A stretch of DNA of 34,520 nt. It comes from Thermoplasmatota archaeon. Its GTDB lineage: Archaea; Thermoplasmatota; Thermoplasmata; Thermoplasmatales; Thermoplasmataceae. Positions within the stretch are counted from its first letter, which is position 1. Each line of letters starts with the position of its first letter. Positions 781-23,341 of this stretch are shown here, piece after piece. A program made the position numbers and the translations under genes. The stretch covers positions 1 through 34,520 of the forward strand of contig JAMCUH010000057.1 in the NCBI GenBank assembly GCA_023379435.1, written 5' to 3'. The notes below the pieces were generated by a model. The model was not told the DNA's origin, did not search any database, and was given only the letters and a program-made list of their open reading frames with translations.

Positions 781-2946
781 ATGGAATCAAATTTGGAAAA
801 ATTTCATAAGATTGCAGATTTCCTGGAGCACCATCCAATATCGGTCCTGGGTCCGCATTATATGCAGGGAGAAACAGCTATCACAGCATATATACCTGAA
901 GGAACGTCAGTATCTGTCGAAAAGAATAATGTTGTCAAGCCCATGCAGATGATTGAGAGAGGGGTCTACACATTGTCATTGCCTGGTGAGTTTCCCGCCT
1001 CAGATTATTTTCTTCTATATACAGATCAGTCTGGATATACTCACAAAGTCCACGATCCTTACGGTTTTGGTACCACGATATCAGATTACGATATATACCT
1101 GTACAAAGCTGGAACATTGAGGTATAGTTGGAAAACACTTGGTGCCCATTTGGAGGAGCGCAACTCAATTCATGGCGTAGTGTTCAGGGTATGGGCTCCA
1201 AACGCCAAGGCGGTATCAGTTGTGGGGAATTTTAATCACTGGATTGTTGGAATGAACCCCATGGAAAATGTGAGGGATTCAGGTATATGGGAGATTTTCA
1301 TACCCGACATCGGAGAAAACGAAGTATACAAATACGCTATTAAATCGAACGCCGACAATCTTGTAAGATTGAAAATAGATCCATACGCCTTTGGTTCTGA
1401 GCTTAGGCCAAGAACAGCGTCCGTTGTGAAGGACATATCATATGAATGGCACGACTCAGATTGGTACAGTTTCAGGGAGACTGATATGGATAAGCCTATT
1501 GCGATCTATGAGGTTCATCTTGGATCATGGAAAAGAAAGAACGGGGAATTCATGAATTATGTCGAAATCGGAGAGGAACTTGTTAAGTATCTGAAGGAAA
1601 CGGGCTTCAACTTTGTTGAGTTTCTTCCTCTGATGGAGCATCCCCTTGATGCCTCCTGGGGTTACCAGGTGACAGATTATTATTCACCAACAAGGAGGTT
1701 CGGATCTGCCAAGGATCTTAAGACTATGATTGAAACGCTTCACAATAACAGAATCGGCGTAATTCTTGACTGGGTACCAGCACACTTCCCTTCTGATGAT
1801 TTTGGCCTTTCTCTGTATGATGGTACGCATCTTTATGAACATGAGGACCCGAGGAAGGGATACCATCCTGACTGGAAGACTATGATTTTCAATCTCGGTA
1901 GAAATGAAGTGAAGAATTATCTGCTTTCCAACGCTTTTTACTGGATTGATGAATACCACGCTGACGGCATAAGGATCGATGCAGTTTCATCGATGTTATA
2001 TCTTGACTATTCAAGGAAGCCAGGTGAATGGGTTCCAAATATTTACGGAGGAAGGGAAAACCTGGATTCGATCAGTTTCTTCAAGGAAATTAATTCTGCC
2101 GTACATCAGGAATTTCCCGGGACACTCATGATAGCAGAGGAGTCTACAGCATGGCCCGGCGTAACTAGGAGTACCGAATCAGGGGGGCTTGGTTTTGATC
2201 TGAAATGGAATATGGGCTGGATGCATGACACCCTTCATTATTTTTCTCTTGATCCGGTTTATAGAAAATTTCACCAGAATGAGTTGACCTTTTCCATGTG
2301 GTATGCATTCAATGAGAAATTCCTCTTGCCACTATCCCATGATGAGGTTGTCTACGGAAAAGGATCGCTCTATTCCAAAATGCCTGGTGATTACTGGCAG
2401 AAGATGGCAAACCTGAGGCTCCTCCTTGCGTACCTTTATACATTTCCAGGTAAGAAATTGATTTTCATGGGTGGCGAGTTTGGTCAGGAGCAGGAATGGG
2501 ATTACAACAGTGAATTAAACTGGGGGATTCTGTCTGATAGAAACCGTACGGCTCTTAGGGTACTTATTAAGGATCTGAACTCCTTTTACAGGAATCAAAT
2601 GTCCATGTACCAGGGAGATACCATAAGCTCTGGCTTCGAGTGGATAGATTTTTCTGATGCTGATCAGAGTGTTATAAGTTTCATGAGAATAGCAAATGAT
2701 AGAAAAGATTTCGTTGTATGTATACTGAACTTTACTCCGGTTCCAAGGAACAATTACAGGATCGGTGTTCCTGAATCTGGCTTTTATTCTGAACTTTTGA
2801 ATACGGATTCTGCAATATATGGTGGGACAGATTCGGGCAATCTTGGAGGTTTGAACTCTGACGATATACCATGCCATGGAAAGAGTTATTCGTTATCCCT
2901 GTATCTTCCACCCCTTGCAGCACTCATTTTAAAAAAGAAAAGGTGA
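781..2946 (+). CDS. glgB: 1,4-alpha-glucan branching enzyme GlgB
   Basis: This enzyme cuts alpha-1,4-glucan chains and re-attaches them by alpha-1,6 bonds, the branching step of glycogen synthesis. At 721 residues it has the size and architecture of bacterial GlgB (GH13): an N1 domain with HHPISVLGPHY near residue 18, a CBM48 domain around 125-225 (VFRVWAPNAKAVSVVGNFNHW region), the catalytic barrel, and a C-terminal beta domain. The triad is visible: nucleophile D400 in GIRIDAVSSML, acid/base E453 in AEESTAWPGV, and D521 in LSHDEVV, each five residues before the E. coli GlgB counterpart (D405/E458/D526). The ATG at 781 has an ATAGGAG site 7 nt upstream. It is the first gene of a four-gene operon; its stop codon lies within the SD of glgE. 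Bacterial-type GlgB in an archaeon suggests transfer. Confidence 0.95.
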   Translation: MESNLEKFHKIADFLEHHPISVLGPHYMQGETAITAYIPEGTSVSVEKNNVVKPMQMIERGVYTLSLPGEFPASDYFLLYTDQSGYTHKVHDPYGFGTTISDYDIYLYKAGTLRYSWKTLGAHLEERNSIHGVVFRVWAPNAKAVSVVGNFNHWIVGMNPMENVRDSGIWEIFIPDIGENEVYKYAIKSNADNLVRLKIDPYAFGSELRPRTASVVKDISYEWHDSDWYSFRETDMDKPIAIYEVHLGSWKRKNGEFMNYVEIGEELVKYLKETGFNFVEFLPLMEHPLDASWGYQVTDYYSPTRRFGSAKDLKTMIETLHNNRIGVILDWVPAHFPSDDFGLSLYDGTHLYEHEDPRKGYHPDWKTMIFNLGRNEVKNYLLSNAFYWIDEYHADGIRIDAVSSMLYLDYSRKPGEWVPNIYGGRENLDSISFFKEINSAVHQEFPGTLMIAEESTAWPGVTRSTESGGLGFDLKWNMGWMHDTLHYFSLDPVYRKFHQNELTFSMWYAFNEKFLLPLSHDEVVYGKGSLYSKMPGDYWQKMANLRLLLAYLYTFPGKKLIFMGGEFGQEQEWDYNSELNWGILSDRNRTALRVLIKDLNSFYRNQMSMYQGDTISSGFEWIDFSDADQSVISFMRIANDRKDFVVCILNFTPVPRNNYRIGVPESGFYSELLNTDSAIYGGTDSGNLGGLNSDDIPCHGKSYSLSLYLPPLAALILKKKR

Positions 2947-2951
2947 TTTTC

Positions 2952-4874
2952 GTGATTTCCAGGATTATAATTGAAAACGTAAAGCCCATTTTGAATGATG
3001 GCGAAAAAAGCATCAAAAGAATATGTGGTGAAACTGTAAGAGTTTCTGCTGATATTTTTTCCCACGGTCATGAGACTGTCAAGGCCAGGATAGCCTACAA
3101 GCATGAATCCCGCGATGAATGGAGGCACTCTGAAATGAAGGGTATGGGAAATGACACCTGGGAAGGATCATTTACTGTTTCGATGAAGGGTACATACATT
3201 TATACCGTTGAAGCCTGGAGCGATACATTCACGTTATGGTTGAACAATATTGCCAAATGGAAAGAAGCAGGAGAAAATATTGCCCCAGATCTTCTGGAGG
3301 GAATATTACTCATCAGGGAAAAGTGCCATCCCAGAGCAGAAAATGAAATTGCTGAGCTTGAAAAATTGCTTGAAAAACTTGAAAATGGAGAATTTAAGGA
3401 TCCACTGGATGAAATATCCAGGCCCTTGATATATGGCATCATCACAAAAAACTGGGCCAAGGATGACTTTGTCTCATATGAAAAGGAGCTTACAGTGGAG
3501 GCGGTGGAAAAGGCAAGAATATTCAGGTCATGGTATGAGATGTTCCCCCGCTCCCAGGGTACAAAACCTAATGTTTCCGGTACTTTCAGAGATTGCATAA
3601 ACCGTCTTCCCGACATCGCAGACATGGGCTTTGATCTCATCTATCTTACTCCTATTCACCCCATTGGTATCACTAACCGGAGAGGTAAGAATGGATCTAA
3701 AAAATGCGAGAAAGGTGATCCTGGCAGTCCATGGGCCATCGGTAACGAGAAAGGCGGTCACAAGTCCATAAATCCCGATTTGGGGACAATGGACGACTTC
3801 CTTGAGTTTGTGAACAAGGCAAGAGGGTTTGGAATTGATATTGCAATGGATATAGCCTTTCAGTGCTCACCAGACCATCCTTATGTTAAGGAACATCCTG
3901 AATGGTTCAGGAGAAGGATTGATGGAAGCATTCGCTACGCAGAAAACCCACCAAAGCGCTACTATGATATATACCCCCTTGACTTTGACACCAGGGATAA
4001 GGAAGGTCTCTGGAATGAATTGAAGAGCATATTCATTTTCTGGGCAGAGAAGGGAATACGGGTGTTCAGGGTGGACAACCCGCACACAAAACCTTTTGAT
4101 TTCTGGGAATGGATCCTTAAGGAGGTTAAGAGGGAATTCCCGGATACAGTTTTCCTGGCTGAGGCCTTCACAAGGCCAAAGGTAATGTATGAACTCTCAA
4201 AGATAGGATTCACACTGTCATACAGCTATTTTACCTGGAGAAACTTCAATTATGAGATTATGGAGTACTTCCGTGAAATAGAGTCTTATCCCATATCGGA
4301 GCATTTCTGGCCGGTGCTATTCACAAATACACCTGATATTCTTACGGAAAACCTCAGGGTAAACGGTAGACCTGCATTTATTTACAGGGCTTTTCTCGCT
4401 GCCACCCTCTCCCCTTCATGGGGCATTTACAGTGGATATGAATTATGTGAGAATGCTGGTATTGAAGGCACTGAAGAATATCTCAACTCGGAAAAATACG
4501 AGATCAAGGTAAGGGATTGGAACTCTACGGGCAACATTAAGGGATTCATATCGTCGCTAAACGGTGCAAGGAGAGAAAATCCAGTATTCAGCCACTTTGG
4601 TAACACAACTTTTCTCGAAACAGGTAATCCAAACATTGTTGCCTATCTGAGGACATACGAGGATTCTTCCGCACTTATGCTGGTGAATATAAACCCCAGA
4701 GAGGCACATACTGCATACATTGATCTCCCTCCTGAATCTCTTGGTATCAGAAATTTTGACTCATACATTCTTGAAGATCTCCTCACAAAGGAAAGAATGT
4801 ATTTTCACGGGAATAAAATTATTATAACACTTTATCCTGAAAAGAGGGCCGGAATGGTCCTTGTGAGGGTGTAA
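2952..4874 (+). CDS. glgE: Alpha-1,4-glucan:maltose-1-phosphate maltosyltransferase GlgE
   Basis: GlgE (GH13_3) extends alpha-1,4-glucans by maltosyl units taken from alpha-maltose-1-phosphate. The N-terminus RIIIENVKPILNDG and the segment with DIFSHGHETVKA are typical. The catalytic residues are D375 (FRVDNPHTKPF), E404 (FLAEAFTRPKV) and D462 (TNTPDILTE). Their spacing of 29 and 58 nearly equals that of Streptomyces GlgE (D394/E423/D480). The C-terminal GIYSGYELCEN motif is also diagnostic and separates it from ordinary amylases. I chose the GTG at 2952: the SD AGGTGA lies 5 nt before it, and the family N-terminus begins here. The reading frame is open back to 2871, but that part overlaps glgB and is not conserved. 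An in-frame GTG at 2943 is an alternative. The protein has 640 residues, within the usual length. Confidence 0.94.
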   Translation: MISRIIIENVKPILNDGEKSIKRICGETVRVSADIFSHGHETVKARIAYKHESRDEWRHSEMKGMGNDTWEGSFTVSMKGTYIYTVEAWSDTFTLWLNNIAKWKEAGENIAPDLLEGILLIREKCHPRAENEIAELEKLLEKLENGEFKDPLDEISRPLIYGIITKNWAKDDFVSYEKELTVEAVEKARIFRSWYEMFPRSQGTKPNVSGTFRDCINRLPDIADMGFDLIYLTPIHPIGITNRRGKNGSKKCEKGDPGSPWAIGNEKGGHKSINPDLGTMDDFLEFVNKARGFGIDIAMDIAFQCSPDHPYVKEHPEWFRRRIDGSIRYAENPPKRYYDIYPLDFDTRDKEGLWNELKSIFIFWAEKGIRVFRVDNPHTKPFDFWEWILKEVKREFPDTVFLAEAFTRPKVMYELSKIGFTLSYSYFTWRNFNYEIMEYFREIESYPISEHFWPVLFTNTPDILTENLRVNGRPAFIYRAFLAATLSPSWGIYSGYELCENAGIEGTEEYLNSEKYEIKVRDWNSTGNIKGFISSLNGARRENPVFSHFGNTTFLETGNPNIVAYLRTYEDSSALMLVNINPREAHTAYIDLPPESLGIRNFDSYILEDLLTKERMYFHGNKIIITLYPEKRAGMVLVRV

Positions 4875-4876
4875 TT

Positions 4877-6535
4877 ATGGATTTTGATGATCCTCTTTGG
4901 TTCAGGGATGCAATTTTTTACGAGTTACATGTTAAATCGTTTTACGATTCAAACGCTGATGGTGTTGGTGATTTTCCAGGTCTCATTCAAAAGCTGGATT
5001 ATCTCAAGAATCTCGGTATAGACTGCATATGGCTTCTTCCATTCTACGAGTCTCCTTTGAAAGATGACGGTTATGACATTTCTGATTATTATTCCATCCT
5101 GAGCGTTTATGGTACTGTGGATGACTTTAAAAAGCTTCTTGATGAGGCACATTCAAGAAAAATAAAGGTTATTGCAGACCTTGTTCTCAACCATGTTTCA
5201 GATCAGCATCCATGGTTTCAGGAAGCAAGAAAGGACAAAAATTCCAAAAAGAGAAACTGGTTTGTATGGAGTGATGACCAGAGCAGATACAAGGATGCCA
5301 GGATAATTTTCATTGACACAGAGAGATCAAACTGGACATTCGATCCTGTGGCAGGTCAATATTTCTGGCATAGATTCTACAGTCATCAGCCTGATCTCAA
5401 TTATGACAATCCTGAAGTAAGGGAGGAGATCAAGAAAGTGATGCGATACTGGCTGGACATGGGCCTTGACGGTTTCAGGTGTGATGCCGTCCCTTACCTG
5501 TTTGAAAGGGAAGGGACAAACTGCGAGAATCTGCCGGAAACACATGCATATTTTAAGGAACTGAGGAAGATGATTGATAGAGAATATCCGGGCAGAATCC
5601 TACTGGCTGAAGCAAACCAGTGGCCTACAGATGCAAAGGCATATTTCGGTAATGAAGACGAGTTTCACATGGCATTCAACTTCCCGCTAATGCCTAGAAT
5701 TTTTGTGGCGCTGGCAAAGCAGGATGCTTTTCCCATAATCAACATAATGCAGCAGGTGACCCCGATTCCTGAAAATTGTGACTGGGGCATATTCCTGAGA
5801 AATCATGATGAGCTGACACTGGAGATGGTTACTGATGATGAGAGGGATATCATGTACAATGAATATGCGAAGCTACCCAAAATGAGACTTAACCTGGGAA
5901 TCAGGAGACGGCTCTCGCCTCTTATTGAAGGTGACAGGTACACGTTTGAACTCCTGCATGCACTCCTGTTTTCCCTTCCCGGTTCTCCCATTATGTACTA
6001 TGGAGATGAGATAGGAATGGGTGACAACATATACCTTGGTGACAGAAATGGTGTAAGAACCCCAATGCAGTGGTCATATGACAGAAATGCAGGGTTTTCT
6101 GCCGCGGACCCGGAACAACTCTATAGCCCAGTAATCATAAATCCTAATTATCATTATGAGTTCATAAATGTCGAGGGTGAATCCAGGATGCCCAACTCTC
6201 TCCTGAACTGGGTCAGGAAGATGATCCTTGTGAGGAGAAAGTACTCGGCCATACTGGGCAGAGGAAAGATAAGATACTTCTACAGCGGCGAGAAATCTGT
6301 TCTTGCTTATGTGCGAAACTACGGGAACGAGAACGTTTTCTGCATTTTCAACCTTGCCAGGGTTCCAAAGGCAGTGATGTTCGATCTGCATGAATTCAAG
6401 GATTACACGCCCGTAGAGGCCATAACAGACAGTGATTTCCCGCCAATAGGGGAATTGCCATACTTCTTCACGTTGAATTCAAGAAGCTTTTTCTGGCTAT
6501 ATCTTAGGCCACCGGGTGATAACACTGGAAAATGA
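4877..6535 (+). CDS. treS: Trehalose synthase TreS (maltose alpha-D-glucosyltransferase)
   Basis: TreS interconverts trehalose and maltose by intramolecular transglucosylation. In the GlgE route it supplies maltose for phosphorylation. The 552-residue protein starts with WFRDAIFYELHVKSF and has the GH13_16 signatures: DGVGDFPGL near 30, DLVLNHVSDQHPWFQ near 100, nucleophile D203 in FRCDAVPYL, acid/base E245 in LLAEANQWP, D311 in RNHDELTLE, and MYYGDEIGMGDNIYLGDR. The GlgE stop and the ATG are separated by two bases (TAA-TT-ATG), with GAGGGTG just upstream as a ribosome-binding site, so translation is coupled. There is no fused maltokinase domain; the kinase is encoded separately by the next gene. 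Confidence 0.95.
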   Translation: MDFDDPLWFRDAIFYELHVKSFYDSNADGVGDFPGLIQKLDYLKNLGIDCIWLLPFYESPLKDDGYDISDYYSILSVYGTVDDFKKLLDEAHSRKIKVIADLVLNHVSDQHPWFQEARKDKNSKKRNWFVWSDDQSRYKDARIIFIDTERSNWTFDPVAGQYFWHRFYSHQPDLNYDNPEVREEIKKVMRYWLDMGLDGFRCDAVPYLFEREGTNCENLPETHAYFKELRKMIDREYPGRILLAEANQWPTDAKAYFGNEDEFHMAFNFPLMPRIFVALAKQDAFPIINIMQQVTPIPENCDWGIFLRNHDELTLEMVTDDERDIMYNEYAKLPKMRLNLGIRRRLSPLIEGDRYTFELLHALLFSLPGSPIMYYGDEIGMGDNIYLGDRNGVRTPMQWSYDRNAGFSAADPEQLYSPVIINPNYHYEFINVEGESRMPNSLLNWVRKMILVRRKYSAILGRGKIRYFYSGEKSVLAYVRNYGNENVFCIFNLARVPKAVMFDLHEFKDYTPVEAITDSDFPPIGELPYFFTLNSRSFFWLYLRPPGDNTGK

Positions 6536-6539
6536 ACTC

Positions 6540-7886
6540 ATGGAATATGTCAGATCAGGGATTGCAAGGGAGAGATGGTTCGTCTCGAAGTCAAGGACAA
6601 TCAAAGATATTTCAATTGAAAGAGATTTGTCATTTTCCATTGGTGACTCCACATACCACATTCTTATTGTGAAAACAGGATTCGATGATTTCTCTGATTT
6701 TTATGCCCTTTTCCTGAAGAAAAGGAAAGATGTATCTGGTTTTGAAAATGCACTGGGTGACAAAAAGTTTGTCAATAAACTTGCAGATGTATTCCTTTCT
6801 GAAAGGACAGGCTCTCCAGGGATACCCGGCATATTTGCTGAACTGGTGATCCCACCCAGCATAGCCTCTGGACATGATATGGATGTTGTTGTGAACAGGG
6901 AAGAGCAGAGCAATAGCACGGTTTTTCTTGGAAAAAAATTGGCTATGAAATTTTACAGGAGACTCACACCAGCAAATTCCCCTGATTACGAACTACCAAA
7001 GAAACTATCCTCCGGAACGGCATTCACTGACACGCCACAGTGCTTTGGCTCTTTACTATACGAATTTAATGGAAAGTTGTACCTGCTGTGTTCCATATTT
7101 CAGTACATAGAGAATGAAGGAAGTTGCTGGACATGGCTTACTGAGAATCTTGCAAAACTTCTTATGTCATCTGAGTTGAAAGACAATTCAATGAACGAGG
7201 AGATTAAGGCCATAGCCGTTGTTACGGCAGAGCTCCATAATGCTCTGAGCAAAGTAACTGACAGTTCAGAATATGTTGATGAGAGAGACATAGAGAACTG
7301 GGGAAGTGAATTCAGAGCAAACCTCAGAGCACTTTACAGCAACAGAATCTCAAATAATCTTCCGCCTCTTCCCATAATGAGAGAAATATCCACAGCAAAC
7401 CTGGAAAAAGTGAAGAGAAGTCCGTTCAGGAAGATAAGGATACATGGCGATTACCATCTCGGCCAGATTATTAAGGCTGGAAAGAAATATTTCGTTATTG
7501 ATTTCGAGGGGGAGCCGATGAGATCACTGGAATACAGAAGGAAACCATCATCGGTACTCAAAGATGTCTCAGGAATGCTCAGATCACTTCACTATGCTAT
7601 ATCCTACGCCTGCATGGTATCTGGCATTGATCCAGATAGTTCATGTCCAGAGAAATGGTATATTATGGCCCAAAACCTGTTCCTTGGCACATATTTAACT
7701 CACATGAAAGGAGATTTTCACATTATTCCAGATGACAAGGAAGTTTTTCAGGCTTTACTTGATTTTTTCATTCTTGACAAGGCAGTGTATGAGGCACTCT
7801 ACGAGGTGAACAACAGACCGGAGTGGACAGGCATACCACTTCATGCAATTAAGGAAATATTGAAGAATTCATCACAGAAGGGTTAG
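6540..7886 (+). CDS. mak: Maltokinase (Mak/Pep2 type)
   Basis: Maltokinase phosphorylates maltose with ATP to maltose-1-phosphate, the GlgE donor. The protein has the aminoglycoside-phosphotransferase-like fold signatures specific to this family: the N-terminal ARERWFVSKSR (mycobacterial Mak has QRWFGGK-like), the catalytic loop HGDYHLGQ with D304, and the metal-binding IDFEGEP with D321, then RRKPSSVLKDVSGMLRS. I prefer the ATG at 6540, four bases after the treS stop, because it places the RWF motif at the usual distance. A GTG at 6516 in the same frame would overlap treS by 20 bases and is possible; no strong SD favours either. It is the last gene of the glgB-glgE-treS-mak operon. Confidence 0.92.
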   Translation: MEYVRSGIARERWFVSKSRTIKDISIERDLSFSIGDSTYHILIVKTGFDDFSDFYALFLKKRKDVSGFENALGDKKFVNKLADVFLSERTGSPGIPGIFAELVIPPSIASGHDMDVVVNREEQSNSTVFLGKKLAMKFYRRLTPANSPDYELPKKLSSGTAFTDTPQCFGSLLYEFNGKLYLLCSIFQYIENEGSCWTWLTENLAKLLMSSELKDNSMNEEIKAIAVVTAELHNALSKVTDSSEYVDERDIENWGSEFRANLRALYSNRISNNLPPLPIMREISTANLEKVKRSPFRKIRIHGDYHLGQIIKAGKKYFVIDFEGEPMRSLEYRRKPSSVLKDVSGMLRSLHYAISYACMVSGIDPDSSCPEKWYIMAQNLFLGTYLTHMKGDFHIIPDDKEVFQALLDFFILDKAVYEALYEVNNRPEWTGIPLHAIKEILKNSSQKG

Positions 7887-12965: not shown

Positions 12966-14402
12966 ATGGAAAATCCAAGCACACCAATGAAACCGAAGAA
13001 GAATAGCGCACTGATTGCTGTTATAGCGGTTGTGGTTGTTGTGGTTATAGTGGGTTCCTTCATAGGGATTGATTATAACCATCTTTTCCCAAAGAAGGTT
13101 ACAACTGTGACCCCGACGCCAACACCGTCTAATCAGGTGCTGTATGTGTATCCAGGAGTAAGTGGACCAGCCAATTCCAATCACCTTCTTGGTGGTTGTG
13201 TCCTTGCAGAAATGAAGGGAGCCGCAGTGCCGGCAGCTTCTGCACAGCTGATGGCATATCTTTTGAATCCGGCCATACAGAAAGCCTGTGAGGCTGCAAC
13301 AGGTTTCATACCGGTTGATCAGGGAGCTTATACTTCCAGTCCGTCAACAACAGTACCGACTATCTATTCCCCCCATAACGCTACTGTAACGGTGTATTAT
13401 TACAGCAGCATCAGTACCGCAGACGTTTCTTACGTGACAAGTGTACTCAATAACTTTCATACAGCCTATCCTAACATAAATGTGGAACCAAGCTTCATAA
13501 CTGCAACAAATATCGTATCAGATATATCCTCGCTCGTTACTGCTAACAGTCACGCTAACGTAGTTATGACCATTGACAACCTTGATGTTGGAACACTCTT
13601 CTATGATAGTTATCTGTTCAATCTGACATCATGGGTGAACACAATTACGAGCGGAGCGCAGGTCATTTCATCTATAAACCAGCTAAACAACTACGAGGTT
13701 AGTGTCTTTGGAGGAACTTATTTCCTGACTCAGCTGGTTAATGTTCCACTCGTGTGGATGGATTACACAGCCATGAAGAAGGCCGGAATCACATCTCCCC
13801 CTACTACCTATACCCAGCTCTACACTGATGCCAAGACCCTATACACCTATTACAACGACACCGGAATGATAAACTTCCAGGGCCACGGTGGAGCCAGCAC
13901 ACCTACAGAGCTCTACCAGTGGATGGTTCAGTTTGACGGAAATCCAATGGTTTTCAATGATACAGGCGACATTCAGGCAATGGAGTACATATATAATCTC
14001 AGCCAGTATTTCAGCCCGGACTACAAAACATCCTACTGGGCAACATACACTGGTCTGGCATCTAACACATACACAGTCATGTATTACCAGTGGCCAGGGT
14101 CCGTGAATCTGACAAAACTGGGAATGACGCCTTACAACTCTACGGATACTGCGCTGAATGAATCCTTAAATGCTCTTAAGGGTGGTGTTTTCCTTAGATC
14201 ACCGGTTGCGTGGATAGGCGAGTGGCAGGATATCATGGATAATACAGTATGGAAAGTGGTAGAGGATCACTCAGGTCTATCAAGCCTGGTGAGCGCGCTG
14301 AACAGTGCAAACTCACACATGGACTCGTATCTTTCATCACTTTACGGCAGCCATGTGGCCCAGCTCTATGAACAGGGATACTACAAACCGGTCTCTGTCT
14401 GA
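12966..14402 (+). CDS. Membrane-anchored ABC sugar-binding protein with rearranged segment order
   Basis: This is an extracellular solute-binding protein of the carbohydrate (CUT1) kind, 478 residues. A short basic N-terminus leads into one membrane segment (about 15-36), then a Thr/Pro linker (TPTPTP, about 46-55), as in anchored archaeal binding proteins; there is no lipobox. Several N-x-S/T sequons suit an S-layer-side glycoprotein. Residues about 139-406 resemble the usual N-terminal and middle part of such proteins (VTVYYYSS..., FHTAYPNINVEP) and 407-460 the usual C-terminal helices. The segment that normally stands between them (GG...AAxxxAxLMAYLLNPAIQKACEAATGFIP style) instead lies at about 57-122, before the first strand. 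The transporter genes converge from the other strand. The substrate is unknown; maltose or trehalose would suit the neighbouring operon (inference). Confidence 0.82.
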   Translation: MENPSTPMKPKKNSALIAVIAVVVVVVIVGSFIGIDYNHLFPKKVTTVTPTPTPSNQVLYVYPGVSGPANSNHLLGGCVLAEMKGAAVPAASAQLMAYLLNPAIQKACEAATGFIPVDQGAYTSSPSTTVPTIYSPHNATVTVYYYSSISTADVSYVTSVLNNFHTAYPNINVEPSFITATNIVSDISSLVTANSHANVVMTIDNLDVGTLFYDSYLFNLTSWVNTITSGAQVISSINQLNNYEVSVFGGTYFLTQLVNVPLVWMDYTAMKKAGITSPPTTYTQLYTDAKTLYTYYNDTGMINFQGHGGASTPTELYQWMVQFDGNPMVFNDTGDIQAMEYIYNLSQYFSPDYKTSYWATYTGLASNTYTVMYYQWPGSVNLTKLGMTPYNSTDTALNESLNALKGGVFLRSPVAWIGEWQDIMDNTVWKVVEDHSGLSSLVSALNSANSHMDSYLSSLYGSHVAQLYEQGYYKPVSV

Positions 14403-14717: not shown

Positions 14718-14730
14718 TCAGTGTCCAACT
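14706..14730 (-). terminator. Hairpin plus T-tract terminator of the permease-ATPase operon
   Basis: On the minus strand AGTTGGA-CACTGA-TCCAACT forms a perfect 7-bp stem with a 6-nt loop that contains the malK stop codon. It is followed at once by a TTTTT run and, a little later, another run of eight T. The layout is that of an intrinsic terminator. Confidence 0.55.
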
Positions 14731-15836
14731 ACATCTGAGAGAAGGCCATCTTTGTATAGATTGTATTTTAGAAGCTGAAATGTTATGGGATCGCCCACAT
14801 CGTATCTCTTTGAAACTCTCATCGTGATATGGAATGTGTTTGGCGCGTCCTGTGATTCAAAGACATCTACTTTTTTCCCTTCCTTACCATCATCTGAAGA
14901 ATCTGCTGAGAGAGTGGCTCTTACCGTGTAGAGATCCTCAGTAACCTGGCAGAAATCGACTGTTGCAGTGAGGCCGCTTGAAGCTTCCTTTGTCCATGTA
15001 TTCCTGAAACCAATTTCATAGCCTTCCTTACCAAGCAATTTTCCGTCTATGAAATTCATCGGATAGTCTCCGACAAAGTCTCCAAGCCACTTTGACTTCG
15101 GTTTGTTTATAATGGTTTCATACGAGGACACCTGTTCTATTTTCCCATTTCTTAAAACTGCAACCCTGTCTGATAGGCTTGCTGCCTCTGACTGATCATG
15201 CGTAACGTAGACAAAGGTATACCCAAGCTCCTTCTGTATTTTCTTCAACTCGCTTCTTGCGGTATATCTAACTCTGGCATCAAGGTTACTGAGTGGTTCA
15301 TCCAGCAGAAACATCTTTGGATCTCTTACAAGGCATCTTGCAAGTGCTACCCTCTGCTTTTGACCACCGCTGAGCTGGGTTGCATTCCTTTCAAGCACAT
15401 CCGCAATCTTCAGAGTTTCGGCAATTTGCATAACTTTTTTATGGATTTCGTCCTTCGTTAGCTTCCTAAGCGTGCCACTGTTTTTTGTACTATCCGCATA
15501 ACTGCCAGCTTCATTTACCTTGGCCAGTTTTAAAGGAAAGGCAATATTCTGATATACCGTCATATTTGGATACAGAGCATAGTTCTGGAATACCATTGCA
15601 ATATCCCTTTTATTTGGCGGAAGTTTCGATATATCTTTGCCATCTAGAACTATCCTTCCTCCAGAGAGTTCCTCAATGCCCACTATTACCCTGAGCAAGG
15701 TGCTTTTCCCCATCCCAGATGGACCTAATACAACTAGGAATTCACCATCTTCAACATCAAGGTTAAGACCCCGTATAACCAATTTGTTGCCATAAGACTT
15801 GTAGATATTATCCAGTTTCAGTTTTGTGTAGCTCAT
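14718..15836 (-). CDS. Sugar ABC transporter ATP-binding protein (MalK/UgpC type)
   Basis: This is the ATPase of a CUT1 carbohydrate importer, 372 residues. Walker A is GPSGMGKST (38-46; Met at a place usually Ser, Cys or Ala), the Q-loop is FQNY (Q84), the signature is LSGGQ (155-159), Walker B is FLLDE (176-180), followed by the D-loop SNLDA and H-loop H213. The C-terminal third is the TOBE-type regulatory domain. Compared with typical MalK there are about 15 extra residues between Q-loop and signature (about 105-125, Ser/Gly/Ala-rich). Its ATG overlaps the TGA of the upstream permease (ATGA), so the two are translationally coupled. A hairpin terminator follows at the stop codon. Confidence 0.92.
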   Translation of the reverse strand: MSYTKLKLDNIYKSYGNKLVIRGLNLDVEDGEFLVVLGPSGMGKSTLLRVIVGIEELSGGRIVLDGKDISKLPPNKRDIAMVFQNYALYPNMTVYQNIAFPLKLAKVNEAGSYADSTKNSGTLRKLTKDEIHKKVMQIAETLKIADVLERNATQLSGGQKQRVALARCLVRDPKMFLLDEPLSNLDARVRYTARSELKKIQKELGYTFVYVTHDQSEAASLSDRVAVLRNGKIEQVSSYETIINKPKSKWLGDFVGDYPMNFIDGKLLGKEGYEIGFRNTWTKEASSGLTATVDFCQVTEDLYTVRATLSADSSDDGKEGKKVDVFESQDAPNTFHITMRVSKRYDVGDPITFQLLKYNLYKDGLLSDVVGH

Positions 15837-16663
15837 ACAACCATGCCTCCTGAAAGATATTGTCCCTTAAGATATTTCATTAGGAAACCAGTGAGGATGA
15901 GAACCGGGACGGTGGCGACCAGAGCGAAGGTTGCCGCATCCAGCGCGAGATCACGCGATACGTAATTATATAATGTAACAGGGAAAGTAGAGTTGCTTGG
16001 TGCAATAGGGTCTATAATTACGGCATACGTAAATTCATCCCATGACGTCATCCATGAAAGCAGGAAAGCAACCATAATAGCTATCCTGTTCAGCGGCAGA
16101 ATAATTCTGAAGAATGAAGTGAAGAATGGTGCTCCATCAACTCTTGCCTGATTCTCCAGGTCCTTTGGGAGACCCCTGAACCCACCAAGTACGATGAAGA
16201 CAGAAAGTGGGAGTACTACAAGTTCCTGAGCAAGGGCAACGCCCACTATGTTGTTATAAAGGCCAACTTTATCGAATTCCGAGGCAACCGGAATGGATAT
16301 GATTAGCCCTGGCATCATGTTGATCAAAAAGAGAAGAACAATGATCTTATTTGACACTCTTGCAGTGAGCTTTGAGAGACCATAACCGGCAAATATGGAC
16401 AGAAAGATTGCAATTCCCCCCACCATGAAAGCCACTTCCAGGCTTCGAAGGAGGGATGATCCTAGATAAAGACCCGGGGTTGTGATTGATGTAATTATAT
16501 TCTTCAGGGTAAAACCTAATGGGAGAAAAGATGGGTACACTCTACCGAAAGTAAACCTCACCGGTTCAAAAGCTATGAGGATCAAAACCCAAAGTGGTAT
16601 GAAAAAGATTATTGCCAAAATTATAGCACCTATATATGTGCCAGGTCCAGCTTTACTGGCCAT
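15833..16663 (-). CDS. Sugar ABC transporter permease, MalG-like
   Basis: This is the second membrane subunit of the CUT1 transporter, with about six hydrophobic segments. The EAA-type loop contacting the ATPase reads ENQARVDGAPFFTSFFRIIL with the conserved DGA and a Leu-Pro next. I chose the ATG at 16663 (276 residues), which overlaps the previous permease by 11 bases and has a GGGGTG-like ribosome-binding site about 9 nt upstream. The frame is open to 16702, but the extra 13 residues would overlap by 50 bases. The gene ends in an ATGA overlap with the ATPase gene. Confidence 0.9.
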   Translation of the reverse strand: MASKAGPGTYIGAIILAIIFFIPLWVLILIAFEPVRFTFGRVYPSFLPLGFTLKNIITSITTPGLYLGSSLLRSLEVAFMVGGIAIFLSIFAGYGLSKLTARVSNKIIVLLFLINMMPGLIISIPVASEFDKVGLYNNIVGVALAQELVVLPLSVFIVLGGFRGLPKDLENQARVDGAPFFTSFFRIILPLNRIAIMVAFLLSWMTSWDEFTYAVIIDPIAPSNSTFPVTLYNYVSRDLALDAATFALVATVPVLILTGFLMKYLKGQYLSGGMVV

Positions 16664-17588
16664 TTTTAGGTGCACCCCCCAAGTAAAGAACAATAGCGGC
16701 AAAAGCCATGATAATCACAAGGAGAACAACTGAGGCTGAATATGCCCAGGGCCGGGTAATGGCAAGAGGATAGTATTCATAGATAAGTGTGTTGAGTAAT
16801 TTTGGCGAGTAACCTATTATCACCAAGGGGAGAGCAAAAATGTTGAATTCGCTGACACCTCTTATTATCAGGGCAACAGCCATGAGGGGAGCTATATTCG
16901 GTAAGGTTATATAAAAGAATCTTCTCAGCGGACCTGCACCATCCACTGCTGCAGCCTCATACATTGATGGGGAGAGAGAAGACATGCCTCCGTACAGGAT
17001 TAGTGCAATTAGAGGCGTGTTTTTCCAGAAGTCTGAAAACATGACAACACCAAGTGAACTCCACTTATTTGCGAACCAGTCTATGCCGTGAGTTGCTATA
17101 CCCTTAAGTCCAAGGGCAAGAAAAAGAGGTTTAAAAAGCATAACGAATCCATTTGCAAAACCTCCAAACGCCTGGAAAATAAGGCTGAAAACGTATGCAC
17201 TGACAACAGTGGAAACGCCGAACGGAATTATGACCAGAAGAGAAAAGAGTTTGTTTCCCTTAAACGGCTTCATCATAAGAGAAGCAAGGAAAAGCGCAAA
17301 AAAAAGTTGAATGAGAAGCGCACCGATACTTACAACAGCCGTATCCACAATGGCTCCATATATCCCGATCCCGGGCAGAGCATAGTAGTTTGACAGTGTT
17401 AAGGTATGCGTGTCATATTTAAAGAAACTGAATAATATCGCACTTCCAGCAGGAACAATCGCAAGAATAAAGACATATGCAATAGCAGGAAGAGCAAAGG
17501 AAAAGTAAAACAGGTCCTTTAATATATGAGATCTCCTTATTTTCCTTTCACTATACCCACCTGAGTCCGCCTCAGTGACATTCAACAT
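16653..17588 (-). CDS. Sugar ABC transporter permease, MalF-like
   Basis: This is the first membrane subunit of the transporter, 311 residues. A charged cytoplasmic N-terminus of about 25 residues precedes six hydrophobic segments. The EAA loop MYEAAAVDGAGPLRRFFYIT, followed by LPNIAPL, is a textbook match. With the next two genes it forms the permease-permease-ATPase operon; the binding protein is encoded separately on the other strand. The oxidoreductase gene lies 55 bp upstream on the same strand. A box AGATTAAGT (minus strand, 17620-17612) about 28 nt before the ATG could be this operon's own promoter. Confidence 0.92.
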   Translation of the reverse strand: MLNVTEADSGGYSERKIRRSHILKDLFYFSFALPAIAYVFILAIVPAGSAILFSFFKYDTHTLTLSNYYALPGIGIYGAIVDTAVVSIGALLIQLFFALFLASLMMKPFKGNKLFSLLVIIPFGVSTVVSAYVFSLIFQAFGGFANGFVMLFKPLFLALGLKGIATHGIDWFANKWSSLGVVMFSDFWKNTPLIALILYGGMSSLSPSMYEAAAVDGAGPLRRFFYITLPNIAPLMAVALIIRGVSEFNIFALPLVIIGYSPKLLNTLIYEYYPLAITRPWAYSASVVLLVIIMAFAAIVLYLGGAPKNGQ

Positions 17589-17643: not shown

Positions 17644-19302
17644 CTAAAGGAACAAATTCATGTTTTCCTGGATATAATGTAAAATCTTTGACCTTCCTGA
17701 CACCATGGCTTCCCTGATGTCATACTGGTTTTTCTCAAAATGGCTAACTGAATATCTATCCGTAATTGAATTATCGATGAACCTTACGCCCATCTCAATG
17801 GCATTTCTTGAAAAGGCCTCCCTCCTTGATCTGTCGAGGCCCTCAATGCTCCTCTTGGTCATGTAAACATCAGATGATAATGAGAGTCTCATTGCATCAT
17901 CCTGATATCTGTAAATATTGGAGTCAATGATTATTTTATCAGATTGTTTGATTTCTGGATATTCTACCAAGGGAAGACAGTAAAGTCCTTCACTGATGTA
18001 ATGATCGTTCAGTTCAATGGAGATACCAAGTTTCTGCATTACATGAGCATAATAATCAAGAAGCCTGCTAAATTCCTTCTTCTTTAATGGATCATAGAGA
18101 TCAAGGAGCTGCCCTCCTATCCTGTCATTCTTTTCGTGGATTGTCACTTTTAAACCACATTTTGTGCCATATATGGCAGCCTCCATGCCTTGAACTCCGC
18201 CTCCAATGATGTCTATCTCACCCTTAAAATTGTAAAAAGGAAGCGGTGTACTCTCGAACCCAGTCTCAGGGTTAACTGTACACCTTACCTCTCCATATGA
18301 AAGATCACGGCAGGCCTGGTTGCACCTGATGCATGGTCTTGGTATTACATTGGAGATTACCTTTTTCGGGAAGTACGGGTCTGCAAGAAGTGCTCTGCCC
18401 AGGGAAACAAAATCAGCCACAGATAAAACCAATTCAGCATCACTTTTTGATGTCACAGACCCCACAACTATTGTGGTTAAATTGGGTTTTCTGGGCATTC
18501 TCAGGAAGATATGTGTCCGCGGGGAATAGAAGGAGGCCGATGAACCAGGAGGTGAAAACCTCCCGGCAGAGAAATGAACATAATCAATGCCATTGAGTGA
18601 TTCAGCAACATTGATACCATAATCCGGGCCGTATCCACCCTCGTCGTCTTCATAGAGACTCAGCCTTATTCCTACAGGAATGGACACGCATTCTCTTATG
18701 CGGTCTATGATCTCCTGCGGAAACCTCAGTCTTCCCCTGAAATCTCTGCCGTAACTATCTTCACGGCGGTTAAGTGAGGGGGATATGAATTCCTGTACTA
18801 GGTAACCATGTGCCCCGTGTATCTCTATCCCATCAAAGTTTGCCCGCTCAGCTATCACTGCCGATTTGGCAAAATCATCCACAATCAAAGATATCTCATC
18901 TTCCGAAATCTCGTCAGGTATACCGCCGGGATAAGAAACAGGAGAAGGTGAAACCGCCCTTTCACCATGGCTTTTTAGCGCTTTTCCACCTGCATGAACG
19001 AGTTGTGCAAAGATCTTTGTGTTCCACCGATGTATCCGTTCAGTGAGACGCCTGAGTTTCGGTATGTAATCATCACTGAATATGCCAAGCTGGTTCCTTG
19101 ATCCCTTGGAATTAATGGGATTTATGTATGCATATTCCGTGATTATAAGGCCTGCTCCACCTTCTGCTCTTTTCTCCAGATACAACATATGATTTTCATT
19201 TGTATTACCATCAGGATTGGCAAGGTTAGAAATCATTGGCGCCATAACGAGCCTGTTGCGAATGTGAACATCCCCTATCTGTCCAGGTTCATCTATTTTC
19301 AT
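17644..19302 (-). CDS. Old-yellow-enzyme family NADH:flavin oxidoreductase / 2,4-dienoyl-CoA reductase-like
   Basis: The N-terminal part (about 1-320) is an FMN-binding TIM barrel of the OYE family: VMAPMISNLA near 20, EIHGAHGYLVQEFISPSLNRR at 160-180 with the active-site H162/H165/Y167, and SLGRALLADP near 300-309. Cysteines C324, C327, C331 and C341 form the 4Fe-4S motif of the FadH/trimethylamine dehydrogenase branch. A GGGVQG dinucleotide-binding loop (367-372) and IGGQL (395-399) begin the FAD domain. After that the sequence is weak and the protein ends at 552 residues, about 100 short of FadH, with no second nucleotide-binding glycine motif. The electron donor site is therefore doubtful. 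Substrates cannot be told from the sequence. Confidence 0.85.
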   Translation of the reverse strand: MKIDEPGQIGDVHIRNRLVMAPMISNLANPDGNTNENHMLYLEKRAEGGAGLIITEYAYINPINSKGSRNQLGIFSDDYIPKLRRLTERIHRWNTKIFAQLVHAGGKALKSHGERAVSPSPVSYPGGIPDEISEDEISLIVDDFAKSAVIAERANFDGIEIHGAHGYLVQEFISPSLNRREDSYGRDFRGRLRFPQEIIDRIRECVSIPVGIRLSLYEDDEGGYGPDYGINVAESLNGIDYVHFSAGRFSPPGSSASFYSPRTHIFLRMPRKPNLTTIVVGSVTSKSDAELVLSVADFVSLGRALLADPYFPKKVISNVIPRPCIRCNQACRDLSYGEVRCTVNPETGFESTPLPFYNFKGEIDIIGGGVQGMEAAIYGTKCGLKVTIHEKNDRIGGQLLDLYDPLKKKEFSRLLDYYAHVMQKLGISIELNDHYISEGLYCLPLVEYPEIKQSDKIIIDSNIYRYQDDAMRLSLSSDVYMTKRSIEGLDRSRREAFSRNAIEMGVRFIDNSITDRYSVSHFEKNQYDIREAMVSGRSKILHYIQENMNLFL

Positions 19303-21727: not shown

Positions 21728-23341
21728 ATGCCATACTCCAAAAACACCATCTATATTCCCCCATACAGTATAGGTAGCAATGAATCCATATCACTTGAAA
21801 AATTGCGTGATAATGACATAAAAAACATGATATTTTTTGACGAAAACCTGAAAGTCATGGGTAACCTCCTCAGAAAAGGGTTCGGAGGTAGCATTGACAT
21901 GATTTATATTGACCCTCCGTTCTTTTCTGAAAACATGTTCAGCATAAAGAACAGATCAGGTGAGCGTGCCTATGACGATAGATGGAAAAACGATATGCAG
22001 TCTTACTTGAAATACCTGGAAAAAAGGATAGTGCTAATGAAGGAACTCCTAAAGGATTCCGGCTCCATATTTGTCCACCTCGACTGGCATGCGTCGCATT
22101 ATGTGAAGGTAATGATGGATAGGATCTTTGGCATGTCGAATTTCAGGAACGAGATCATATGGCACTATTATATGGGAGGAAAATCAAAGAAGGAATTTGC
22201 GCGTAAGCATGATGTCATCCTTTATTATTCCAAAGGCAGGAAATGGAAGTTCAATCCGCAGAAAATAAAAAGAAGAATAGATTTTCTGCCAAAACTACCG
22301 CTTAAATCATCCACAGGTAATGCTTTGGAAAACACCTATTTCAAGGATGAAATTGGTTGGTATTCTGTCGTAACTGCAGATGACGTCTGGGATGTTCATG
22401 GTGTGTTCAATCTCGGCAGGGAATATTCAGGATACCCAACACAAAAGCCACTTGAGATCCTGGAAAGAATTATTGCAGCATCCACAGATAGTGGCGATAT
22501 CGTTGCAGACTTTTTTATGGGGTCAGGCACGTCAATGGTTGCATCATCCTCAATGGGAAGGCATTTCATCGGATGTGATAATTCATACTATGCTGTGACA
22601 ACGACCATAGAGCGTCTGATGAATCCAGATAAGATGAAATTCAAGGATCACTATTCGCAGGGGCGAAAGGAAGATTCATGCTTCCAACTTATGCTAAATA
22701 TGAGCATTCCCAGGAAAAGATTAGCATCTATTCTTCAAACGAAGACTCACTGTGAGGAAATGTTTCAAAGAAAAAATGATATTACATTTGATAATATCCT
22801 TACATCACTCACTAAAAAACTTGACCCTGCTCACATAATTTTAAGGGACAGACAACATCGTTTCAATATTTTCTCCAATAGATTTTTTATAGGCGGTGAA
22901 GAAAAAAATGGATTGGTAACGTATTTGTCGAAGGGAGAGGTCTGGACACTTAATATAAGGCAGTCACAGGATATCCATCTTTTCCTTTTTGGGAATTGTA
23001 ACCCCATTGGAAAAGGTGAAGATAACGCCGTTAACACTTTGAAAGTGGAGGATCTTTGTGAAAATTTATTCTTCAACACGGAAGAACTTCTCATCAAGTC
23101 ACTAAAGATACGAGAAGAACCAACAAATGTTTCCGTCAGTCCAGATCTAATATCTGTTGGGGTTTCCGGAAGAGATCAGTTGCCCGTTATTCTGAAATGC
23201 TATCCATATCATGAAAATGGTAAGTACAAAATGTCGCTTCCTGCAACGATGAAGAATGTAGAATGGATTTTTCAAAGGTTTTCCATTGGGTGCATAAATA
23301 TGGATATATACGTCAGGAGCCCTCTGAACCCCCACATGTAA
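21728..23341 (+). CDS. DNA methyltransferase, N6-adenine/N4-cytosine (beta class), without restriction partner
   Basis: This enzyme methylates an exocyclic amino group of A or C in DNA. Motif IV is IDPPFF (DPPF, 62-65) and comes before motif I, DFFMGSGTS (261-269), with YPTQKP (motif X) just ahead of it. That order defines the beta class, as in Type III Mod subunits. Residues 1 to about 310 form the catalytic domain. The remaining roughly 225 residues are not recognisable and may hold the target recognition domain or a partner interface. The ATG follows the SDR gene by 6 bases, with a TGATC ribosome-binding element. No endonuclease, S subunit or Res helicase is next to it, so it looks like an orphan methyltransferase. 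The sequence specificity is unknown. Confidence 0.85.
   Translation: MPYSKNTIYIPPYSIGSNESISLEKLRDNDIKNMIFFDENLKVMGNLLRKGFGGSIDMIYIDPPFFSENMFSIKNRSGERAYDDRWKNDMQSYLKYLEKRIVLMKELLKDSGSIFVHLDWHASHYVKVMMDRIFGMSNFRNEIIWHYYMGGKSKKEFARKHDVILYYSKGRKWKFNPQKIKRRIDFLPKLPLKSSTGNALENTYFKDEIGWYSVVTADDVWDVHGVFNLGREYSGYPTQKPLEILERIIAASTDSGDIVADFFMGSGTSMVASSSMGRHFIGCDNSYYAVTTTIERLMNPDKMKFKDHYSQGRKEDSCFQLMLNMSIPRKRLASILQTKTHCEEMFQRKNDITFDNILTSLTKKLDPAHIILRDRQHRFNIFSNRFFIGGEEKNGLVTYLSKGEVWTLNIRQSQDIHLFLFGNCNPIGKGEDNAVNTLKVEDLCENLFFNTEELLIKSLKIREEPTNVSVSPDLISVGVSGRDQLPVILKCYPYHENGKYKMSLPATMKNVEWIFQRFSIGCINMDIYVRSPLNPHM

Follow-up and report, generated by a model that had tools for sequence, protein, structure and literature searches.

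A membrane-anchored solute-binding protein from Thermoplasmata with a non-circular transposition of CUT1-type segments

Results

Genes at the locus

The window, the whole stretch of DNA that was analysed, comprises 34,520 nucleotides of a contig from a Thermoplasmatota archaeon (JAMCUH010000057.1). It contains a gene for a solute-binding protein (SBP) with two permease genes and a MalK/UgpC-type ATPase gene alongside, as expected of a CUT1 importer. SBP segments are named A, B and C after their order in ordinary relatives; the window protein has the order B-A-C (Table 1). The limit between the two parts of segment A was set by homology to UgpB hinge 143-146.

Table 1. Coordinates of the B-A-C protein gene, its parts and the adjoining transporter genes in the window.
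Feature	Position	Strand	Residues and basis
B-A-C solute-binding protein gene	12966..14402	+	478 aa; ORF, Pfam SBP_bac_8, orthologues
N-terminal membrane anchor helix	13005..13064	+	residues 14-33; modelled helix H14-33, hydrophobic, KPKK just before
Thr/Pro linker	13065..13136	+	residues 34-57; sequence, low model confidence
Segment B	13137..13331	+	residues 58-122 (HMM match to 130); two strands, then two helices
Gly76-Gly77 of segment B	13191..13196	+	alignment; invariant in B-A-C proteins
New B-to-A connector	13332..13382	+	residues 123-139; alignment; good confidence in 59-row model
Segment A, first part (lobe I)	13383..13733	+	residues 140 to ~256; HMMs, model
Segment A, second part (lobe II)	13734..14153	+	residues ~257-396; HMMs, model, UgpB limits
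A-C junction without B	14154..14165	+	residues 397-400; alignment, segment HMMs
Segment C (rest of lobe II)	14166..14399	+	residues 401-478, including invariant Arg411; alignment, HMMs
ABC transporter ATPase, CUT1/UgpC/GlcV type	14718..15836	-	profile matches
ABC permease 2 (MalG/GlcU-like)	15833..16702	-	profile matches
ABC permease 1 (UgpA/MalF-like)	16653..17588	-	profile matches

The genes for permease 1, permease 2 and the ATPase adjoin the B-A-C gene in 12/13 loci examined, and the remaining locus (L055) starts at a contig end. Three layouts were seen among loci L089-L107: the B-A-C gene is convergent and downstream of the transporter genes, as in the window, divergent and upstream, or downstream on the same strand. 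The SBP gene of ordinary relatives is mostly the first of the operon, on the same strand.

A GH15 trehalase-like gene is found near five B-A-C transporters (L089, L096, L056, L090 and L092) and beside two ordinary A-B-C transporters (L103 and L102). These genes match the NCBIfam model TreH1 (E 1e-116 to 1e-121) but fall short of the model's cut-off. In the window, 5 kb upstream of the SBP gene, genes for GlgB branching enzyme, GlgE maltosyltransferase, TreS (above cut-off) and a putative maltokinase lie in a row (781-7886, +). Taken by itself, this row looks like a complete alpha-glucan cluster of the GlgE type, here in an archaeon. The neighbouring trehalase and TreS/GlgE genes make trehalose or a related alpha-glucoside the most likely ligand, a prediction from gene neighbours in which we have moderate confidence. 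The Thermococcus litoralis trehalose/maltose-binding protein (1eu8) ranks among the top solved chains related to the ordinary-order profile.

One B-A-C gene lies in the genome of the cultured species Cuniculiplasma divulgatum, strain S5. A single close match to the ATPase was found in that region, at 814,373-815,392. When genes are counted onward from it, number six is a thiolase and number nine overlaps with a PALP-family enzyme at 825,392. This fits CSP5_0855 (acetyl-CoA acetyltransferase) for the sixth gene and CSP5_0858 (cysteine synthase) for the ninth, by which count CSP5_0849 should be the ATPase and CSP5_0850 the SBP. CSP5_0849 was reported as expressed in the proteome (PMC7285479); the SBP is not named in the main text of that paper.

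Two further genes in the window were recorded. An N6_N4_Mtase-family DNA methylase is encoded at 21728-23341 (+), with no restriction partner noticed among the neighbours examined, and an Old-yellow-enzyme/NAD-binding fusion at 17644-19302 (-), whose C-terminal redox domain was matched by Pfam at its start only.

Segment order of the protein

The window protein was compared with the 279-position Pfam profile SBP_bac_8, and residues 60-126 aligned to profile positions 209-270. By this alignment a late piece of the family is placed at the front of the protein. The score of 28.9 bits is above the curated cut-off of 27, and an orthologue (L002) is above the cut-offs of both SBP_bac_1 (35.4 vs 26) and SBP_bac_8. 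Profile searches with the segment alone and the body alone had been suggested in the initial annotation, which was made from the sequence. Isolated segment B still matched SBP_bac_8 positions 210-271 (E 2.5e-4), and the body of the window protein without segment B matched no Pfam family. No NCBIfam model matched the window protein in a search of that collection.

Separate profile HMMs for A, B and C were built from ordinary relatives and from the window protein's relatives, then searched crosswise. The ordinary-order B profile matched the window protein at residues 60-130 only (iE 3e-14), and gave an N-terminal match in 24/24 B-A-C proteins (iE 1e-9 to 1e-21). Segment A was matched at 140-393 and was followed directly by C at 401-478. 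A second B was sought in the bodies of the 24 B-A-C proteins, and no match better than iE 0.05 was found; the sole other match, at iE 0.076, is at noise level. In the reverse direction, the B profile of the window protein's group matched between A and C in 18 ordinary relatives. All ordinary relatives that were read have the order A-B-C (36/36). The initial annotation had placed B right after the membrane anchor and linker, before the usual first strand, and had noted that it seems to be missing from its normal place; both claims, and with them the proposed order B-A-C, agree with the Pfam and HMM results.

Among solved structures, UgpB (9lff) was the best match of isolated segment B (E 0.017), over residues 315-373 of the chain; under the likely offsets between this chain index and the numbering of the UgpB paper, B would either lie within the second domain I piece or start where hinge 2 ends. 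Other solved sugar binders were matched more weakly. A profile of ordinary-order B pieces matched 12 solved chains, with B at residue 217 or later in 12/12.

Segment B keeps the motif YPGxSGxxNSxHLLGGxVLA...FMAYLL..P.VQ, in which GG is also invariant in the ordinary A-B-C relatives. Its hydropathy correlates with that of ordinary B (r = 0.55; shifted controls <=0.16). Identity between the two groups is 0.31 for B vs 0.40 for A and 0.38 for C, and by this measure segment B has diverged somewhat faster than the other two. At residues 112-117 the B-A-C proteins read TGFIPV and ordinary Thermoplasmata relatives LSWPAV; UgpB has the similar TGYVPI.

The missing piece and the added piece have boundaries that agree within a few residues in the alignment. 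Ordinary relatives read ...YNxTNST/LGVYPG...AKYSxID/ALGxAI..GVFLR (slashes mark the boundaries), while the window protein at the same boundaries reads ...YNSTDTALNESLNALKGGVFLR, with LYVYPG...VPTIYS in front. Where the window protein has residues 397-400, ordinary relatives have ~72 aa. Circular permutation was considered and ruled out, as B-A-C is no rotation of A-B-C. The profiles and alignments show, with high confidence, a non-circular transposition of CUT1-type SBP segments, and this is what the initial annotation had called a non-cyclic transposition.

Distribution and origin

An order-wide search identified colinear full-length or near full-length orthologues in 26 genomes including the window's own, spread over 10 genera of one Thermoplasmata family of acid-loving archaea, with 47-73% identity. 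Two of the genes lie on single-contig chromosomes, G089 and G012, the latter being C. divulgatum S5. Partial or broken copies were found in six further genomes. On contig 8 of genome G007 (85792-87212) a B-A-C gene is split over three reading frames (L010, L017, L025), which reflects decay or sequencing-error frameshifts. In class- and phylum-wide samples the B-A-C order was confined to the one family. Two genomes, G016 and G070, contain both orders in different transporters. Dozens of residues are invariant across the 26 sequences.

All B-A-C proteins fall on one side of one branch in the A+C tree (SH-aLRT 100) and again in the B tree (SH-aLRT 99). Their partner permeases form one clade (support 100/100) in a tree whose outgroup, a remote second transporter, has branches too long for a usable root. 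As the B-A-C proteins form one clade, a single event is indicated. A-B-C was found in all other SBPs met, so it is taken as the older order and would be ancestral. The B-A-C order would have arisen once, in an ancestor inside the family. The path is a guess: a gene or segment B may have been duplicated and the old B then lost, which would account for the matching boundaries. The B-A-C bodies read include no intermediate that carries B twice.

Predicted fold and lobe crossings

Residues 53-478 were modelled with AlphaFold2 using a 59-row alignment (the window protein, 22 B-A-C proteins and 36 ordinary relatives). Because B is an insertion in the rows of ordinary order, these rows inform A and C only and B rests on the B-A-C rows. 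The model is a two-lobed alpha/beta fold like that of CUT1 binders, with pLDDT 91.2 and pTM 0.88. Segment B has block means of pLDDT 90-97, except for a first block of 80, and contains strands 58-62 and 76-83 and helices 89-99 and 102-112. A shallower run with 23 B-A-C rows gave confidence for much of B and the first part of A (A1) and left lobe II poor, as expected if B and A1 are one unit. AlphaFold2 may be biased to a familiar fold. Top Foldseek matches of the 59-row model were CUT1-type sugar binders (Atu4361, MalE3, 1eu8 and others) with TM scores of 0.38-0.59, values that are unsurprising because Foldseek follows chain order and the order differs from that of the matches. The ordinary-order profile matched 1eu8 nearly end to end.

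In UgpB, domain I comprises residues 23-142 and 303-373, domain II residues 147-283 and 388-433, and the three hinges are 143-146, 284-302 and 374-387; ligand contacts include Gly303 and Arg393 (PMC12718374). Gly303 appears to lie at or near the GG of segment B, and Arg393 probably corresponds to Arg411 of segment C. By homology, B of ordinary SBPs would be the second piece of lobe I, with A running from lobe I into lobe II and C completing lobe II. If B is the second lobe I piece, placing it in front makes each lobe one continuous stretch. Lobe I of the B-A-C protein would thus extend from residue 58 to ~256 and lobe II from ~257 to 478. There is good reason, from the comparison with UgpB, to expect that three lobe crossings in A-B-C are reduced to one, with the first hinge alone left covalent. 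Segment B probably fills the vacant place in the body. It would pack on A1 as in ordinary SBPs, so that lobe I consists of B and A1 and lobe II of the second part of A and C, and the ligand would be enclosed as in other flytrap proteins, the motion here turning on a single covalent hinge together with packed contacts.

Discussion

The window protein is predicted to be a working membrane-anchored SBP of a CUT1-type importer whose most likely substrate is trehalose or a related alpha-glucoside. Its segment B, the second chain piece of lobe I, would have been shifted ahead of the strand with which lobe I begins. We put the probability of this reading at roughly 0.85. Somewhat less firmly, we consider it likely that this is a natural transposition of single origin, which turned a three-crossing type II SBP into two continuous lobes with a single covalent hinge and remained functional over at least 10 archaeal genera, including a cultured species.

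Segment B might instead be a small separate domain with another task close to the membrane, such as spacing or contact with a partner, the body working without it. Its place after the membrane linker, the ~17-residue connector behind it and its somewhat faster evolution would suit such a domain. We felt that this is improbable, since one long strand and two helices give B no full sheet of its own, B retains both the GG motif and the hydropathy pattern seen in ordinary relatives, HMMs found no other segment filling the gap in the body, and pTM is 0.88 for the whole chain. A three-dimensional swap, in which lobes are completed by the B of a neighbouring molecule in a dimer or chain, is a shade less probable still: the length of connector 123-139 would in principle allow it, but the single-chain model is confident throughout.

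The window genome consists of 59 contigs and is 69% complete, which could raise the question of an assembly or binning error or of a decaying gene. This has almost no weight against the same order in 25 other genomes, among them the two single-contig chromosomes, and the conservation of invariant residues over the 26 sequences; assembly error as such is ruled out by these 25 independent genomes.

The B-A-C protein is a derived variant of the CUT1-type SBPs (SBP_bac_1/SBP_bac_8; 1eu8, UgpB 9lff, Atu4361 4qsd). It shares with them its segments, fold match, and partner permeases and ATPase, and is predicted to catch sugar outside the membrane as they do. The difference is in segment order: those proteins are A-B-C with three crossings, whereas one crossing is predicted here. 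TpMglB-2 (Tp0684) of Treponema pallidum is a circularly permuted type I SBP with a fourth crossing added, for which the names Type Ic and Cluster Bc were proposed (PMC4990184). It is likewise a membrane-tethered sugar-binding SBP with a natural change of chain order kept in a clade. However, its change is circular, affects a type I protein and adds a crossing, while the B-A-C change is non-circular, affects a CUT1 (type II) protein and should remove two. Tethering was suggested as the selective reason in TpMglB-2 (PMC4990184), and by analogy could be the reason in B-A-C proteins.

Experiments with ribose-binding protein, whose halves were permuted or split by engineering, indicate that SBP halves tolerate re-wiring (PMC10601554, PMC9815098); these constructs were made in the laboratory from a type I protein, whereas B-A-C is natural. 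A further comparison is domain dislocation between SBP folds of types I and II (Fukami-Kobayashi 1999, cited in PMC10601554). As in B-A-C, SBP evolution there changes which chain piece belongs where. The dislocation reportedly moved a strand between lobes, whereas B is predicted to keep its lobe and to have changed only its place in the chain. No account of the B-A-C arrangement was found in the literature searched, which was largely open-access.

Sequence searches under-call proteins of this kind, as seen from the absence of an NCBIfam match for the window protein and of a Pfam match for its body alone. Type II SBPs are the textbook case of lobes that interlace, a feature often taken to be important for folding and for movement about the hinge. 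In the B-A-C proteins evolution appears to have undone it. The A-B-C relatives, some of which also have such a trehalase gene next to them, provide a natural control, with which it can be tested whether flytrap motion needs three crossings and whether the lobes can fold, or be swapped, alone.
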